The notes beneath the pieces were generated by a model. It was not told where the DNA came from, made no database searches, and worked only from the letters and a program-made list of their open reading frames with translations. A stretch of DNA of 40,129 nt, taken from an uncultured Candidatus Poseidoniales archaeon (lineage in GTDB: Archaea > Thermoplasmatota > Poseidoniia > Poseidoniales > Thalassarchaeaceae). Position 1 is the first letter of the stretch; each line of letters begins with the position of its first letter. Positions 19,354 through 33,619 of the stretch are shown here, piece by piece. The stretch spans positions 107,571-147,699 of the forward strand of contig CACKMK010000002.1 in assembly GCA_902601345.1 (NCBI GenBank), given 5' to 3'. The position numbers and the translations under genes were made by a program.

Positions 19354-20577
19354 GTGCGACTTCTTACTTTCCTGAGATTCTACAGAGAGATCCGAAAGGA
19401 AGGCCCTGCCGACTTGGACTGGATACAGAATCAGGGCCTTCTAGCGGTGAAGCTGTCCCAAATCTTCGCCCTCAGGCCAGATATGCTCAGTATTGAGAAA
19501 TGCAGACAACTACAGAATATGTACAGAAACGCATCGACCATCCCCACAGAGGACGTCGAGCGGATTCTCAAAGAGAAAGCTCCTAGCGGCTTCTACGATT
19601 CCTTGGCTTGGTTTGATGAGGAGCCGTTAGCCGCTGCTTCTGTAGGTCAGGTACACAGAGCAACACTAACCAACGGAGAGGAGGTCGTAATCAAGGTGGT
19701 CAAGGCGGATCACAAGGAGAGGTTCCGCAGGGACGTGAAAAGGATGATGAGGATGATGAGATTGGCCATTTCACTGTCACCAAAACTCAGGAGGGTGGGA
19801 AACCCTCTGGCACTTCTCAGACACGTTGAGGACTACACAACTAGAGAGTTGGACCTGCGTAATGAGATCAAGGGAGGATCGGAGTTAGAGTCCATTCAAG
19901 GTAGTTTATCCGGGGATTTCCCGATGCCCAAGCTCAGATTCCCGAAGTATTATCCTGAGATGTCTAACGAACATGTATTGGTCTCCGAATTTGTGAGAGG
20001 CAAGACGCTGGAAGAGTGCATCAATGACGAGAGCCTGCCTTGGGATTACTTAATCGAGCTATTCAGAATACACGGGGCCTACATGTTCGGAATAGGGACG
20101 TTCCATGGGGATCTCCATCCTGGTAACTGTATAATCGACGAGGATGGATGCTTTGTTTTCATCGACAATGGAGCTATATGCGAAGCTCCACGGAATGTTA
20201 GTCTGTCACTATTCAATTTCTTCGAGGAATTGTCGAAGAGTAATCATGATGCTGCATTCGAAGCTCTGTTAGGCATAGCAGGCCAGAGGCCTAATGAAGA
20301 CAGGGTGAGGAGGTTCAAGAACAGGATGGCGGAAATCTACGAAGGTTTCGGAGAAAAGAGCGTGGGCGAACAGAGCCTTACTGATCTAATGATGAGAACT
20401 GTGAGAACTGCAGTAGAGGATGCTGGTGCGGATTTCGGTGAGGAGGGTTTTCCAATCATTCGGTCTCTGATGTACATGGATGGTTTAGTAATCAGAACCC
20501 ATCCACAGGTCAAGTTGATTGCAGAGATGGGTCCGTCGCTGGCTGAGTTCAGAGACGGTCTGGACATGGAGTGGTGA
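19354..20577 (+). CDS. UbiB/ABC1-family atypical kinase with altered motifs
   Basis: About 407 residues from a GTG at 19354. The frame stays open to an ATG at 19237, but that start would overlap the Vsr-type gene by 76 bases. ABC1/UbiB signatures: LLAVKLSQIFALRPDML in place of the usual KxGQ motif, EPLAAASVGQVHRA (the Ala-rich loop replacing the P-loop), VVIKVVKADHKERF (ATP-binding Lys), LVSEFVRGKTLEE, and FHGDLHPGNCII as catalytic loop. The Mg-binding motif reads IDNGAI instead of DFG. UbiB proteins act in quinone and isoprenoid lipid metabolism in bacteria, mitochondria and plastids. The next gene, a phytoene desaturase, starts 2 bases after the stop, so an isoprenoid role is plausible. Confidence 0.82.
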   Translation: MRLLTFLRFYREIRKEGPADLDWIQNQGLLAVKLSQIFALRPDMLSIEKCRQLQNMYRNASTIPTEDVERILKEKAPSGFYDSLAWFDEEPLAAASVGQVHRATLTNGEEVVIKVVKADHKERFRRDVKRMMRMMRLAISLSPKLRRVGNPLALLRHVEDYTTRELDLRNEIKGGSELESIQGSLSGDFPMPKLRFPKYYPEMSNEHVLVSEFVRGKTLEECINDESLPWDYLIELFRIHGAYMFGIGTFHGDLHPGNCIIDEDGCFVFIDNGAICEAPRNVSLSLFNFFEELSKSNHDAAFEALLGIAGQRPNEDRVRRFKNRMAEIYEGFGEKSVGEQSLTDLMMRTVRTAVEDAGADFGEEGFPIIRSLMYMDGLVIRTHPQVKLIAEMGPSLAEFRDGLDMEW

Positions 20578-20579
20578 TA

Positions 20580-22136
20580 ATGAGCGAACACAGTGACGTG
20601 ATCATAGTCGGAGCCGGTCCTGGTGGCCTTTCTTGCGCTATGCTCCTTGCCAAAGCCGGAGTTAAGGTCACCATTCTGGAGAAAACAGGAGAGGTTGGCG
20701 GGAGGACGAAGGTCTTCGAGAAGGATGGTTACAAGTTCGATAATGGTCCGACGTTCTTCCACTACCCAGAAATCGCAGAGGAGATCTTTGACTGCCTTGG
20801 TCTAGATGCGCATGAAGAGTTAGGTCTGATCCCTCTTGATCCCAACTACAGACTAGTGTTCGGAGCAGGAGGGAGCCTGAATGCTAACACCGACTTGGAT
20901 GATATGACTGAACAAATCAGAAATCTCTGTGGAGAGAAGAACGCATCTGGCTTCAGAAGGTATATCGAAGATAACCGAACGAAGATGACGCTGTCTAAGA
21001 ATTGCCTCAATGCTCCATGGAGGGGTCCGATGGACTTGATGAACAGGCGTGCTTTGCGAGTAGCGAGAGTCCTGAGGCCGTGGAGGAGCGTTGCCTCTGA
21101 TCTATCTAGATTGTTTCCTGACGAGAGGATGCAACTTGCTATGTCCTTCCAAACCAAGTACTTGGGAATGAGTCCGTTCCATGCTCCCAGTCTTTTCACA
21201 ATCCTCGCATATTTGGAGTATGAACATGGGGTTTTCCACACCAAGGGAGGGTTGGGGAGCATTACACATAGGATGGGTGAGATTGCAAGAGATTTAGGGG
21301 TGGAAATCCGACTGAACGAGCCAGTTAGCGAGTTCTTGTTCGAGGGTAAGACAGTAGTGGGTGCCAAGACTGAGATGGGGTCGTACACAGCCGAAAGGTT
21401 CGTCATGAACGTTGACTTTGCAACCGGAATGAAGGGTTTAGTACCTGACGAACTACGAAAGAAGTGGTCCAACAATAAGTTGGACAAGAAATCGTATTCA
21501 TGCTCGACTTACATGCTTTATCTGGGAGTAGACAAGGTGTATGACACCCCACATCATCAGATTTACGCGGCTAAGGACTACCAGAAAAACCTCCGAGAGG
21601 TCACAGAGAACAAGGTGGCTTGGGAGGACCCCTCCGTCTACGTCCAGAATGCGTGCGTCACGGATCCATCAATGGCGCCCGAGGGGCATTCGACAATCTA
21701 TGTTCTAGTGCCAGCCAGTACACGTCATCCCGACATAGATTGGGATGAAATAAAACACGAGTACATGGACGTTATTCTCCAGCAAATGGAGAAGTTGGGT
21801 TTCTCGAATCTGAAGGATCACATTGTCTCACAGACTATTGTTACTCCCGATGATTGGGCATCTCGAGACATCTACAAGGGTGCTGTATTCAATCTTGCTC
21901 ATGGTCTGGATCAGATGCTTTGGCGAAGGCCCCAGAACAAGTTCGAGGAACTAGAAAGGCTCTACCTAGTTGGTGGGGGGACCCATCCCGGAAGCGGTTT
22001 GCCTACTATCCTGGAAAGTGGTAGAATTTCTGCGAAGATGATCTGCGCTGACATGGGAGTCGTACCTGACTGGAACGGTGCTGATCCATGGTTCGAAGAC
22101 CTCAGGAGGCCGAAACTCAAAGTGAGAAACGCCTGA
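20580..22136 (+). CDS. crtI: Phytoene desaturase-type FAD oxidoreductase (CrtI family)
   Basis: The 518-residue protein (ATG at 20580 with GGAG 8 bases before; a GTG at 20571 would overlap the previous stop) shows the CrtI layout. The FAD motif is VIIVGAGPGGLSCAMLL (about 7-23) with EVGGRTKVFEKDGYKFDNGP after it. The conserved middle has SPFHAPSLFTILAYLEYEHGVF and a GG at HTKGGLGS. The C-terminal FAD signature is LYLVGGGTHPGSGLPTILES. CrtI enzymes introduce double bonds into phytoene; relatives saturate, isomerise or ketolate carotenoids. Neighbours (UbiB-like kinase, ABA4-like protein) support an isoprenoid or carotenoid function, possibly chromophore supply for a rhodopsin encoded elsewhere, which is inference. 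The exact reaction is not determined. Confidence 0.87.
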   Translation: MSEHSDVIIVGAGPGGLSCAMLLAKAGVKVTILEKTGEVGGRTKVFEKDGYKFDNGPTFFHYPEIAEEIFDCLGLDAHEELGLIPLDPNYRLVFGAGGSLNANTDLDDMTEQIRNLCGEKNASGFRRYIEDNRTKMTLSKNCLNAPWRGPMDLMNRRALRVARVLRPWRSVASDLSRLFPDERMQLAMSFQTKYLGMSPFHAPSLFTILAYLEYEHGVFHTKGGLGSITHRMGEIARDLGVEIRLNEPVSEFLFEGKTVVGAKTEMGSYTAERFVMNVDFATGMKGLVPDELRKKWSNNKLDKKSYSCSTYMLYLGVDKVYDTPHHQIYAAKDYQKNLREVTENKVAWEDPSVYVQNACVTDPSMAPEGHSTIYVLVPASTRHPDIDWDEIKHEYMDVILQQMEKLGFSNLKDHIVSQTIVTPDDWASRDIYKGAVFNLAHGLDQMLWRRPQNKFEELERLYLVGGGTHPGSGLPTILESGRISAKMICADMGVVPDWNGADPWFEDLRRPKLKVRNA

Positions 22137-22145
22137 GGAAGACCC

Positions 22146-22583
22146 ATGGACCTGTATGATCTCTCGTTCTTCCTATCGACAATGTGGGTTGGACCCTTCT
22201 GGCTCGCGATGCTAGTTTACCCTGAACACGAAAGGACAAAGGAGATTCTCAGAGGGCCCTGGTTCTTCATTGGACCTATTGCCATTTGGTGGGTCGTGAT
22301 TGCTTCCGACCCCGAGGGTCTAATCGAGCTCTCAGAGGGCTTCACAGACCCGCTGAACGTTTTGGATAGTTTGGTGGGTATTCTCGGAACCCGTGCTGGG
22401 GCTTCCGCAGCATGGGCCCATATGGTGGCAGGTGACATTTTCATCACTAGATGGATGTGGAATAGATGTATCAAAAAAGAAAGTGAAAGGTGGATATCCG
22501 CAGTTTCCGTATTTTTCGGCGTGATGCTTATGCCAGTTGGAGTGGCCATACACCTAGCCCTAGTTCGTGAAGATTCGGACTGA
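22146..22583 (+). CDS. ABA4-like membrane protein (DUF4281)
   Basis: The 145-residue protein has about four hydrophobic segments. It matches the ABA4 pattern: an early VGPFWLAMLVYPEHERTK, and then RAGASAAWAHMVAGDIFITRWMW (residues about 83-106), where the Ala-Trp-x-His and the Asp-x-Phe-x-x-x-Arg-Trp order is characteristic. Plant ABA4 is needed for neoxanthin formation from violaxanthin. The gene begins 9 bases after the phytoene desaturase stop, so an involvement in carotenoid or isoprenoid modification is suggested by both family and context. The actual substrate in an archaeon is unknown. Confidence 0.78.
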   Translation: MDLYDLSFFLSTMWVGPFWLAMLVYPEHERTKEILRGPWFFIGPIAIWWVVIASDPEGLIELSEGFTDPLNVLDSLVGILGTRAGASAAWAHMVAGDIFITRWMWNRCIKKESERWISAVSVFFGVMLMPVGVAIHLALVREDSD

Positions 22584-25230: not shown

Positions 25231-26331
25231 TCACTCTGTATGGCAATACTGCCTGTCCTCGTACCACGTTCCACCGTTAGCCTCGCAGTCCTCTTGGTTA
25301 TCGGAGGTCTCCTGCCCTTCGTCGCCTCTGTCATCCTCGCGGTCATCGGTCCATTCGCAGTAGAATACCCCTTCACCGCGATCAGCCGCCTCTGTCCACA
25401 CTCCCATCCTGGATTCACACATCTCCTGAGTAATCTCTACTTGAGGAGGTGCTGGAATGGGCTGGCCTCGATCCTCGCACCTGTCTAGCATCTTGCAGAA
25501 AACGCCTCCGATTCTGTCTCGGAATCCCTTCCTCCTGTCATGATCGCGGTCGCACCTCTGGTCATCTGAGCAGTCACTGTGGTGGTTCTCTCTAGAAGTC
25601 ATGTGCTCCAGTACAGTCCCTAGAGTCTCTTGATCAGCCGAGCAGTCTTGGCTGGAGATGCAGAAGGATATTGCTTGCTGGGCCGCTCTCAGCTGGATTG
25701 ACTTCTCCTCGGAAAACTCCATTCTCTTCTCCTCGTCCCAGTCCTTCCTCTCGTCCCAGTCCTTGTATTCATCGGCGAAGGCACAATACTCACCCTTTCG
25801 ATCGTCGTTAGTCCAAGTTCCGCCCTTTTCCTCGCATTCTTCCTGGGTTCCGTCCTCGAAGTCTTCCTTGTCGACTAAGGAGTCTTCGCCGTCCAGTTTG
25901 GCCTGCATACCATCCACAGCCGAGGATAGTTTGCCGATCATCTCGGAAAGTGATTCGGCATCTGCTGTGCAATCCGCGTTATCTTGACAGAATTGGAAGG
26001 CTACGATTAGGTTGGAATCGATCTGTATCCTCTTCTCGAGGTGCTCGGCCCTGTCCTCCATCCTATCGTCCATACGACTCTTCATCGCCTTCCTGATGTG
26101 CTTACCAAATGGCTTGTTTTCCGTTTCCTTGGCCTCCCATGTGTCCTCCCCGGTCACATCATCTACTGCTCCCTCGAAAGGGTCCTCCTCCGCGTACACA
26201 GGCGAAGCGTAGTCCTCTAGGGTTGCTGAGACTGATGCCCCGGCCAGCAGGGATACCATTGCGAGTGTGATTACTCCAATCGTGGCTCTGCTTCTGTTCT
26301 GCTCCGTTCTGACGCTTCTCTTTGGGTTCAT
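25231..26331 (-). CDS. Secreted charge-rich protein with two kinds of Cys repeat
   Basis: The 366-residue protein has a signal sequence (ATIGVITLAMVSLLAGASVSA) after a basic N-terminus and is then extremely rich in Asp, Glu, Lys and Arg. Two repeat types are visible. FCxxxxDCxADxExL occurs at about 114-128 and 223-237, each in a predicted helix. C-E-x-x-G/M-G-x-W...YC occurs three times, at about 166-183, 305-325 and 349-363. Cys are paired, suggesting disulfides outside the cell. A segment KDWDERKDWDEEK is a short direct repeat. No family is recognised. It is divergent from a membrane-anchored cupredoxin gene. Metal or charge-based binding at the surface is a possibility only. Confidence 0.75.
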   Translation of the reverse strand: MNPKRSVRTEQNRSRATIGVITLAMVSLLAGASVSATLEDYASPVYAEEDPFEGAVDDVTGEDTWEAKETENKPFGKHIRKAMKSRMDDRMEDRAEHLEKRIQIDSNLIVAFQFCQDNADCTADAESLSEMIGKLSSAVDGMQAKLDGEDSLVDKEDFEDGTQEECEEKGGTWTNDDRKGEYCAFADEYKDWDERKDWDEEKRMEFSEEKSIQLRAAQQAISFCISSQDCSADQETLGTVLEHMTSRENHHSDCSDDQRCDRDHDRRKGFRDRIGGVFCKMLDRCEDRGQPIPAPPQVEITQEMCESRMGVWTEAADRGEGVFYCEWTDDREDDRGDEGQETSDNQEDCEANGGTWYEDRQYCHTE

Positions 26332-30436: not shown

Positions 30437-30486
30437 AATGGAGAGAGTTTGGTGTCAATCCTGATACCCCTCACCGAATCCATTAA

Positions 30487-30517
30487 CAATGACTCGTAGA
30501 GTCATTGCGCAATGACT
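30487..30517 (+). promoter_or_regulatory. Overlapping palindromes spanning a start codon (candidate operator or leader hairpin)
   Basis: CAATGACTC-GTA-GAGTCATTG (30487-30507) is a perfect 9-base inverted repeat. Its right arm is reused in a second, perfect 18-base palindrome AGTCATTGC-GCAATGACT (30500-30517) that covers the ATG at 30512. The unit CAATGACT therefore appears three times in alternating orientation. This could be an operator for a dimeric repressor or an RNA hairpin around the initiation codon. Confidence 0.6.
30489..30515 (+). other. Upstream ORF of eight codons overlapping the next start codon
   Basis: ATG at 30489 opens MTRRVIAQ and stops at TGA 30513-30515, which overlaps the ATG (30512-30514) of the 1035-residue gene as ATGA. 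This geometry is typical of translational coupling. The uORF lies inside the palindromic array and might be a leader peptide or chance. Confidence 0.4.
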
Positions 30518-33500
30518 GAGCGGCACGCTAAGAGTTCAACCCAATACGGTTGGGGAAGAGCTGCCGTTCTACTATCCGTGATTTTCCTAGTCCAGGCAGT
30601 GGCTCCAGCGGCTGTTTCGGAGGACACGTTCGATGAGATGACCCTCTGCCAGCCCTCTCCAGGACTAGACGGGGTTTGTGACAGCAGGTTCGATGCCAAT
30701 GATGCGACGCAAGACATCACTAGCTGGGTTGAGGGAATGTTTCACTTCAATATGACAAGCCCTACTGAGATTCAATTCCAAGCCTCGTGGGCAATCAGGG
30801 AGTGGGATAAGTCAGGGATGGATCTGTTCACATCCAGTTCGATGGTAGCAGCACTTAGTAGTGACAATATCAATGCAAACGATGGTCTGCCCGCAGACGT
30901 ACTCAGGTCCGCCTTCGACGAAAATACAGACCCGAACGACGTCACATCGCCAACCATACAAGAGTCCCTCCTAGGGGAGATTGATGGATCGATAAGCGCC
31001 TTCTTAGCCAACTGGGGCGGCTCTACATCTCCTGAAACCACATGGGAGGATAGGGTGTTCCTACCTGATGACTCCGGGGTGGTTTCTGCGGTCGATTGTA
31101 CGATTGATCCTGCTTCTGACAGCGATGGCAATGCCTTCGAGCCCCCCATCTGCATTTCCACTAACGTCAACATAACTCTGCCTATTTCCTCGACTTATGG
31201 GCTAAACGGGGTATCTGAGTCCAATCTGAATACTGCCCTGGAGGGTTTACTTGTGATGGGATCAGAAATCACAACGAAGTTCGACGTCAGGGTTGAGCCT
31301 GGTCACAAGGGGACCTATTCCATCCAACCACCATCATATGCCACAGTTATCGACGCGACAGGATGGGGAGTCAACGAGGAGGTCTCCGAAGACGGTGGGG
31401 CGTACTCTTCTGGTCTTTGGATCGTGGACAACCGTGACGACCCCAATGGACTGTCTCCCAGCAGCCAACCCGCTGACTTGGACATGACTATCGGGATGAG
31501 AGACAAGAGTACCACAAGCAAGGTCGAGGTCTCGCCTGATGACAGGAGCCTGGATCTCAGGGTTTCGATCGATCTTTCCGACGAGAGCAATGCCTTCGTG
31601 GAGGTAATAGCAGGGATATACCAGATACAATCCAGTAGCCTGAGTAGTTGGGGCGTCCCCGATTTGATGCCTAGAGACAAGGCGACCATCCCGGTAATAA
31701 CTTCCGACGGGATAAGGATGGCATATCATACTGGGCTTCTGGACCTGAACGATCTCTCCAAGAACATCCCGATCTCAGGGATAGGTCAGGCACTAACCGA
31801 CTCAGGTGGGGGATCGAGCGTGAAGATGGGCGATTTCCAATGGATCCACGTGTCCAGTGCTCCCCTGGACCAGGGCGGTCTGAACTACACCCATTCTTCC
31901 ACACAATGCGAAAGGGGAGTGTATTACTGTATGGAGGGATCCGTAGCCATGGATGACACCTACCCCGTATACATGAGGTCGGTAAGTCACACTTTCCCAT
32001 TTAGCCTCGCTGACCTGCTGGGCGGGAACCTCGGTGACTCTGGCTTCATGAACTCGGTTTCTGGGGACGATCTTAGCAAGCTTCTCAACTCAGGGCTGGA
32101 GTTCTCAACGGTCCTAAGCGATGATACCATGGAGACGTTCGTGGGAAGCTTGCTTCCTAGCGGAATCAGCGCGGATTTGACGATGGAGATCGTTCTGCCT
32201 ACCTGGGCTTCTACTCCACAGGGTGGTGACTCTATCGTGTTGAATTACAGGGCTTCCGGAGACCACAGCGGGGTCATCGACCTTACCGGTTCTGACTCCT
32301 TCTTCTGGAACCACGCGATATGCAGGGACACGGTTCCGAGCGCTTGCTTCGATGGGGGAGGGGACACAGTGTGTCCCTCGACCTCGAAGAGTTGCGCATA
32401 CATGGATGTGGACATGGACGTAGGGGAGGTGTCGTTTGCAAGCCTCCCACTGACCAAGGGCGTGACGGTCGAATTCGCCCTATCAGTTGACATGGTCGTT
32501 CACAGGATTGCGGTCCCCGATGAGTTGTTCGATTCACTGAACACCGATTCCACCAGCATGAGTCTGGACGTTCTTCCCTCAGACCTGCTCAGGGCGCTAT
32601 TGGACATAGGTTCCAGAGGAGACCCTCTCGAGGTGGAGTTCTCGTTGTGCGACAATGGGAAGTCGTACTGCGAGCAGAGCATGCCCATATCGTCCAGCCA
32701 GACCTCAGGACTTCCGTGGTACGTAAATGAGTTGGAGAGGGACATAAAGTCCCTGATAGAGGACACTGCCATGGAGTTGACAGAGGAGGATGGGAACGGT
32801 GTCGGGGATATCGACATGTCTGGCTTTACCATCGATATAGAGTTCCCTCACGAGATGATCACGGACAATGACGACGTCATCGGCGACGAGAGGGGCATAG
32901 TCCTAAGCATCGATATTCCGAAGGTGAGTATGACTGCTGGCATCACCAACTCCTGGGTTGAGTTGATCGGAATTCTCAGGGGCAATGGGCAGAGCCCTGA
33001 GTTCGGCCTTGCCACCGAAGACGTCTCAATGAACACTCTAGCTGCCCCTTTCATCACTCCTATGGTTGCAGCGATGGGTAGTTTGACCGGCGCCCTTTCA
33101 TCTAGCATGGTTGCCCCCTCACCCGAGGGAGTCAGGGTCAACGACGCTAGTGCTGATTTGCCCACTTCGAAGCTGGCCAATATAGGCGATGATTCTCTCG
33201 GCCTGAGTTTTGCGGGCACGTACACGATAACGATGCCTCTGGGCATGGAGCTAGAGAATCTTACATCAGAGGAGGGTAGGATCACCTCTGTAATTAACAA
33301 CGATTCAAAGCGACAAGTCATATCTTACACCATAAGTCAGGGAATGGGGGATGATAGTGTGGGTTTTACCCTTCTTTTGACCCCATTTTGGGTTATCAAG
33401 CAAGTCCAGTACTACATCATAGGGCTGTTGGCGTTCATGCTTTGGAGAGTGAGGCGTAGGATGACAAGAAGGAAGCGAAAGAAGAGGGCCAGGGCGCTAG

Positions 33501-33619
33501 AGGCCCTTGAAGAGATGGCCTCCTCGCCGATAGGATACATCACTCCTCAGCCCACCGTCGAGGTTGTACAGGTTACCGACAATGGAATAGTGATCAAGAG
33601 AAGGCTGACCGCCACCTAG
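30512..33619 (+). CDS. Large surface protein with C-terminal membrane anchor, unknown function
   Basis: The 1035-residue protein has a signal sequence (about 14-36) and a long external region rich in Ser, Asp and Gly. Scattered Cys pairs occur, for example CQPSPGLDGVC near 47-57 and a Cys cluster near 610-630. A membrane helix lies at about 958-982, followed by a strongly basic cytoplasmic stretch (RVRRRMTRRKRKKRARALEAL) and a short C-terminal tail. The external part seems beta-rich. No known domain is recognised. It could be an S-layer, receptor or polymer-binding protein. The M28 peptidase lipoprotein follows after 10 bases, and a palindromic array covers its start codon. Confidence 0.75.
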   Translation: MTERHAKSSTQYGWGRAAVLLSVIFLVQAVAPAAVSEDTFDEMTLCQPSPGLDGVCDSRFDANDATQDITSWVEGMFHFNMTSPTEIQFQASWAIREWDKSGMDLFTSSSMVAALSSDNINANDGLPADVLRSAFDENTDPNDVTSPTIQESLLGEIDGSISAFLANWGGSTSPETTWEDRVFLPDDSGVVSAVDCTIDPASDSDGNAFEPPICISTNVNITLPISSTYGLNGVSESNLNTALEGLLVMGSEITTKFDVRVEPGHKGTYSIQPPSYATVIDATGWGVNEEVSEDGGAYSSGLWIVDNRDDPNGLSPSSQPADLDMTIGMRDKSTTSKVEVSPDDRSLDLRVSIDLSDESNAFVEVIAGIYQIQSSSLSSWGVPDLMPRDKATIPVITSDGIRMAYHTGLLDLNDLSKNIPISGIGQALTDSGGGSSVKMGDFQWIHVSSAPLDQGGLNYTHSSTQCERGVYYCMEGSVAMDDTYPVYMRSVSHTFPFSLADLLGGNLGDSGFMNSVSGDDLSKLLNSGLEFSTVLSDDTMETFVGSLLPSGISADLTMEIVLPTWASTPQGGDSIVLNYRASGDHSGVIDLTGSDSFFWNHAICRDTVPSACFDGGGDTVCPSTSKSCAYMDVDMDVGEVSFASLPLTKGVTVEFALSVDMVVHRIAVPDELFDSLNTDSTSMSLDVLPSDLLRALLDIGSRGDPLEVEFSLCDNGKSYCEQSMPISSSQTSGLPWYVNELERDIKSLIEDTAMELTEEDGNGVGDIDMSGFTIDIEFPHEMITDNDDVIGDERGIVLSIDIPKVSMTAGITNSWVELIGILRGNGQSPEFGLATEDVSMNTLAAPFITPMVAAMGSLTGALSSSMVAPSPEGVRVNDASADLPTSKLANIGDDSLGLSFAGTYTITMPLGMELENLTSEEGRITSVINNDSKRQVISYTISQGMGDDSVGFTLLLTPFWVIKQVQYYIIGLLAFMLWRVRRRMTRRKRKKRARALEALEEMASSPIGYITPQPTVEVVQVTDNGIVIKRRLTAT

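Follow-up and report, generated by a model that had tools for sequence, protein, structure and literature searches.

A genus-wide conserved inverted repeat as a probable DNA operator of a predicted surface-protein gene in Poseidoniales archaea

In the present study, a near-invariant 60-bp block was revealed at the start of a single gene throughout a genus of Candidatus Poseidoniales (Marine Group II) archaea (genus g1 of the 11 genera of the family, g1 to g11). This genus-wide, gene-specific element is real and regulatory, and a DNA operator is its most likely nature. The inverted repeat just upstream of the start codon represents real biology, and the 18-bp palindrome overlapping it does not (Table 1). 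We hypothesize that the repeat is probably the operator of a dedicated, presumably dimeric DNA-binding regulator of this one gene, with repression as the likely direction. The genus-wide conservation and the position of the repeat support the original prediction that a palindromic operator, to which a protein would bind, covers the core promoter of an mRNA that is probably leaderless. All positions refer to the window, the whole stretch of 40,129 nucleotides that was analysed (positions 107571-147699 of contig C2, from a genome of 1.18 Mb that is 64% complete).

Table 1. Positions of the promoter and gene features in the window
Feature	Position	Strand	Remarks
Entire 60-bp block (-39 to +21, counted from the ATG)	30473..30532	+	gap-free alignment of 22 species; 90% upstream identity
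BRE-like box ACCGAAT	30473..30479	+	invariant in 22 genus members; same spacing in g7; putative BRE role, from position
TATA-like box ATTAACAA	30482..30489	+	-30 to -23; from the alignment; similar distance in other genera
Inverted repeat CAATGACTC-GTA-GAGTCATTG, proposed operator	30487..30507	.	-25 to -5 relative to the ATG; single copy in the genome
18-bp palindrome, regarded as incidental and not conserved	30500..30517	.	only G000, G003 and G004 of 22
Gene proposed to be regulated, 1035-residue predicted surface protein	30512..33619	+	no Pfam or NCBIfam family
First seven codons, nucleotide-level constraint	30512..30532	+	269/269 same-residue codon pairs identical
Small inverted repeat AGCG-GMA-CGCT in the coding start	30519..30529	.	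centred on +13; four pairs invariant in g1

The features originally described at the start codon, a 9-base repeat overlapping an 18-base palindrome, are all present in the window. The repeat has two perfect arms of 9 nt (30487-30495 and 30499-30507) separated by 3 nt, the two halves of the palindrome (30500-30508 and 30509-30517) match perfectly over 18 bp, and an 8-base unit, CAATGACT, occurs three times in alternating orientation, at 30487 (+), 30500 (-) and 30510 (+). The TTAA of the proposed upstream box was located at 30483-30486, and the 1035-codon open reading frame begins with the ATG at 30512. The rarity attributed to this arrangement is weaker than had been claimed. Of 60 dinucleotide-shuffled versions of the window, 22% contained an 18-bp palindrome and 7% a repeat with 9-bp arms and a 3-nt loop, and approximately 1.9 repeats with 9-bp arms and loops of 0-10 are expected per window. 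However, when 54 promoter regions of 50 nt each on the same 147.7-kb contig were compared, the 9-bp repeat clearly stood out as the longest, the runner-up having arms of 6. The real evidence for the repeat is its conservation across species, not its scarcity inside the window.

Loss of the palindromes upstream of orthologs with a conserved coding region had been named beforehand as the refuting observation, and the repeat, on the contrary, precedes the gene in all 22 genus members with an available gene start (one of them a UBA623 record, with its matching contig binned in G140). Throughout these species, the block from -39 to +21 is near-invariant, with the consensus ACCGAATcC..TAACAATGAcTC...GAGTCATt...c.ATG..tgAGCGG.ACGCTAAg. 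When the window was compared with nine divergent genus members, the 40 nt upstream of the gene showed 90% identity. Control genes of the region that have a true upstream region of their own reached 20-68%; two further control genes scored 74% and 81%, and their starts sit inside a neighbouring gene. The 9-nt arms are perfect in 15 of the 22 species, and the remaining seven carry one or two changes in the arms, chiefly at the outer end of the right arm. Both half-sites are kept with at most two arm changes in every member, as in a two-fold-symmetric site, and the 3-nt spacer varies freely among six forms. Fixed half-sites around a free spacer are as expected of a site bound by a dimer. The idea that the two palindromes form one overlapping unit was not borne out: the longer palindrome depends on CGCA before the ATG together with ATGACT in the three species that carry it, and the usual form is ATGGCT. 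Methylation by a GANTC enzyme was also considered, given the GANTC in both arms, and was rejected as a general explanation because the motif is absent here in G085, G090 and G091.

The earlier account captured the repeat and overlooked that the constraint runs on into the first seven codons. When codon pairs encoding the same residue were compared, all 269 in codons 1-7 were identical, versus 44% gene-wide and a median of 43% for windows of seven codons. The small AGCG-GMA-CGCT repeat in this segment is unpaired in g7.

The mRNA of the surface-protein gene is probably leaderless, the transcript beginning at or near the ATG, because the promoter shows a TATA-like box from -30 to -23, preceded by a BRE-like box. 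The TATA-like box reads TATAACAA in G002, G007, G013 and G022. Both the start codon and the TATA-like box are predictions from the sequence, and the promoter profile of 54 genes shows a weak rise in A+T near -33 to -25, which counts against the proposed model. In Haloferax, 72% of protein-coding transcripts have been reported to be leaderless (PMC4983044). Given a leaderless start, the repeat would lie upstream of the transcript in untranscribed DNA, between the TATA-like box and the start codon, a position from which a bound protein could hinder or help the pre-initiation complex. Herein, we propose that the BRE/TATA pair at -39 to -23 would direct a transcript most likely starting at the ATG, and that the operator would occupy the gap between TATA box and start and reach into the TATA box at its 3' edge. 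Binding of a dimer there would obstruct TBP/TFB or RNA polymerase, and therefore repression is the likely direction of control. The conserved DNA extending to +21, with its small inverted repeat, could serve as an accessory contact or belong to the footprint of the polymerase.

The 1035-residue protein carries one hydrophobic stretch at each terminus, with a basic tail after the C-terminal one, and because of this layout it is labelled a putative surface protein. Searches of Pfam and NCBIfam returned zero matches, and the predicted structure was unusable (pLDDT 28). Relatives were found in 131 of 148 genomes of the family, covering all 11 genera. The gene is split over two adjacent reading frames in G002 (L022/L023, G002:C21), and G007 (L025/L026, G007:C101) has an extra diverged copy with 32-33% identity. 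A g1-type gene (L040, G140:C65; 76% and 56% identity) was observed in a bin assigned to g11 that also holds its own g11-type copy, and the contig is probable binning contamination.

The promoter of this gene was also compared in other genera. In g7, a related genus with approximately 40% protein identity, the repeat takes the form of the arrangement TACCGAAT-N8-AATGACTC-TTTA-GAGTCATT-GGAT-ATG in six of nine species, with a spacer of 4. Two observations here count against the operator: in the other three species the palindrome has decayed and the gene is kept, and the 1-bp difference in spacer between g1 and g7 is unusual for a rigid dimer site. Outside these two genera, BRE/TATA-like boxes are retained in g4-g6 and g8-g11, in most cases at a distance of 29-32 nt from the start codon. 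The box is GGATTCAGACTTATGGTA in g5, g6, g8 and g11, GGGAACTGCATTATAGGA in g4, CACTACCCAATTAAACC in g9 and GGGGAACCAAATTAAATGA in g10, in which several likely starts sit further downstream. The GGATTCAGACTTATGGTA box is near-invariant approximately 30 nt before the start at orthologous promoters in g6 (L092, L097, L098, L156-L165) and at most g5, g8 and g11 loci, and each g6 genome has a single copy of it. In g5 and some g11 bins, the start codon forms the centre of a different palindrome, CGCGCGGC-ATGN-GCCGCGCG, with one covarying pair in G067, and five g8 species have CGCACGCCC-CCNA-GGGCGTGCG or a near variant. Among the remaining sequences, no palindrome above chance was detected at this promoter, and the several genera without one also count against the operator. 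We raise, as a speculative possibility, that this promoter has repeatedly gained sequence-unrelated palindromes across the family (the TGACTC type in g1 and g7, others in g5 and part of g8), such that a dedicated one-gene switch would persist while operator and regulator turn over and the core promoter box stays frozen within lineages.

Several other explanations were weighed. First, the block might be a strong core promoter of a highly expressed gene, in which the whole footprint of the pre-initiation complex (BRE, TATA, melting region and downstream DNA) has been optimised and the palindrome is incidental or contacts basal factors. A footprint of this kind would be about as long as the block, and every resolved genus retains the BRE/TATA-like box, including those in which the palindrome is missing. 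However, this explanation, which we regard as unlikely, accounts neither for the exact 8-9-bp symmetry around a free spacer in g1 and g7 nor for the differing palindromes in g5 and part of g8, and the other genes of the region have no comparable block. Second, an RNA element would require an upstream transcript start, so that a hairpin by the ATG governs ribosome access, perhaps together with another small one in codons 3-6. In favour of this, the minimum-energy fold is the hairpin (-14.1 kcal/mol, z -2.1), a second hairpin could form next to it, and there is nucleotide-level constraint on codons 1-7. Nevertheless, the position of the TATA-like boxes, approximately 30 nt before the start, implies a leaderless start, arm mismatches comprise no compensatory and seven disruptive cells over 16 distinct sequences, the second hairpin is absent in g7, and no match was found in Rfam. 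Hence, the hairpin masking the start codon, offered originally as the alternative, is quite improbable, and a DNA operator is favoured because the repeat is probably untranscribed and its arm mismatches are never compensated. Third, a small conserved upstream open reading frame coupled to the surface-protein gene, from the ATG in the left arm (30489), has eight codons in the window genome and a stop overlapping the start codon (ATGA), but it is contradicted by the alignment of 22 species and can practically be dismissed, since in G013 and G015, whose spacer ends in T, it is cut short after three sense codons, in the ATGGCT species it reads past the ATG, and the spacer varies without a codon pattern.

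A search for the site upstream of other genes had been suggested with the original prediction. In genome-wide searches with the full repeat, the BRE/TATA block and the relaxed pattern TGACTC-N3-GAGTCA, the known site alone stands out, with one site per genome. The relaxed pattern gave 55-92 matches per genome versus 42-75 for reversed-pattern controls, which is near to modestly above the controls and no clear enrichment. These results suggest a regulator without a detectable second site, its own gene included, within an incomplete assembly that has gaps. Viral copies of the element were absent from IMG/VR. One gene approximately 5 kb upstream of the surface-protein gene in g1, P0002 (24697-25173, -), encodes two hydrophobic stretches, as in a two-helix membrane protein, and a C-terminal DUF7343 winged helix, and is present in g1, g7 and some g5. 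Beside it, a 366-aa protein without a Pfam match (25231-26331, -) has a similar patchy distribution, so that the two resemble a two-gene module. P0002 is kept as a weak candidate for the regulator: its neighbour is similarly distributed, in two g7 genomes approximately 75 kb separate it from the surface-protein gene, and g5, with a different palindrome, has the same recognition-helix region in this protein. Elsewhere in the window, a gene with a Vsr-type mismatch endonuclease domain (Pfam PF03852; 18884-19312, +) lies upstream of FAD amine-oxidase and ABA4-like genes (20571-22583).

The Marine Group II archaea are an abundant, uncultured group, and a search of open-access papers found no operator described for them. 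With its silent sites frozen into the coding region, the 60-bp element at this one surface-protein gene provides a concrete bait for a dedicated regulator, and could also reveal under which condition a large exposed protein is switched. The palindromes of unrelated sequence found at this promoter across the family would give a test case for operator turnover. The kind of operator is already known in archaea. What is new, as far as our searches could show, is the instance, its specificity for a single gene, the freezing of the first codons and the occurrence of unrelated palindromes at this promoter in other genera.

Promoter-occluding repressors in archaea, e.g. of the TrmB and Lrp families, are bacterial-type regulators acting on a TBP/TFB promoter, and the majority of those studied control several targets or their own gene. 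In contrast, the site described herein is present in a single copy and was seen at no regulator gene. The nearest characterised precedent is YtrASa, a GntR-family regulator of Sulfolobus acidocaldarius that represses just two membrane-protein loci via a palindrome covering the start site (PMC6746942). The YtrASa site has a 14-bp core over the start site, and YtrASa regulates its own operon (PMC6746942). Here, the 21-bp repeat lies between TATA and start, and the one site per genome is found solely at the surface-protein gene, unlike a YtrA-type site. Despite these differences, the two systems share a palindromic site by the known or predicted transcription start, a link to membrane-protein genes, a very narrow regulon and, as in the YtrASa operators, flanking secondary half-sites, and YtrASa represses by steric hindrance (PMC6746942).
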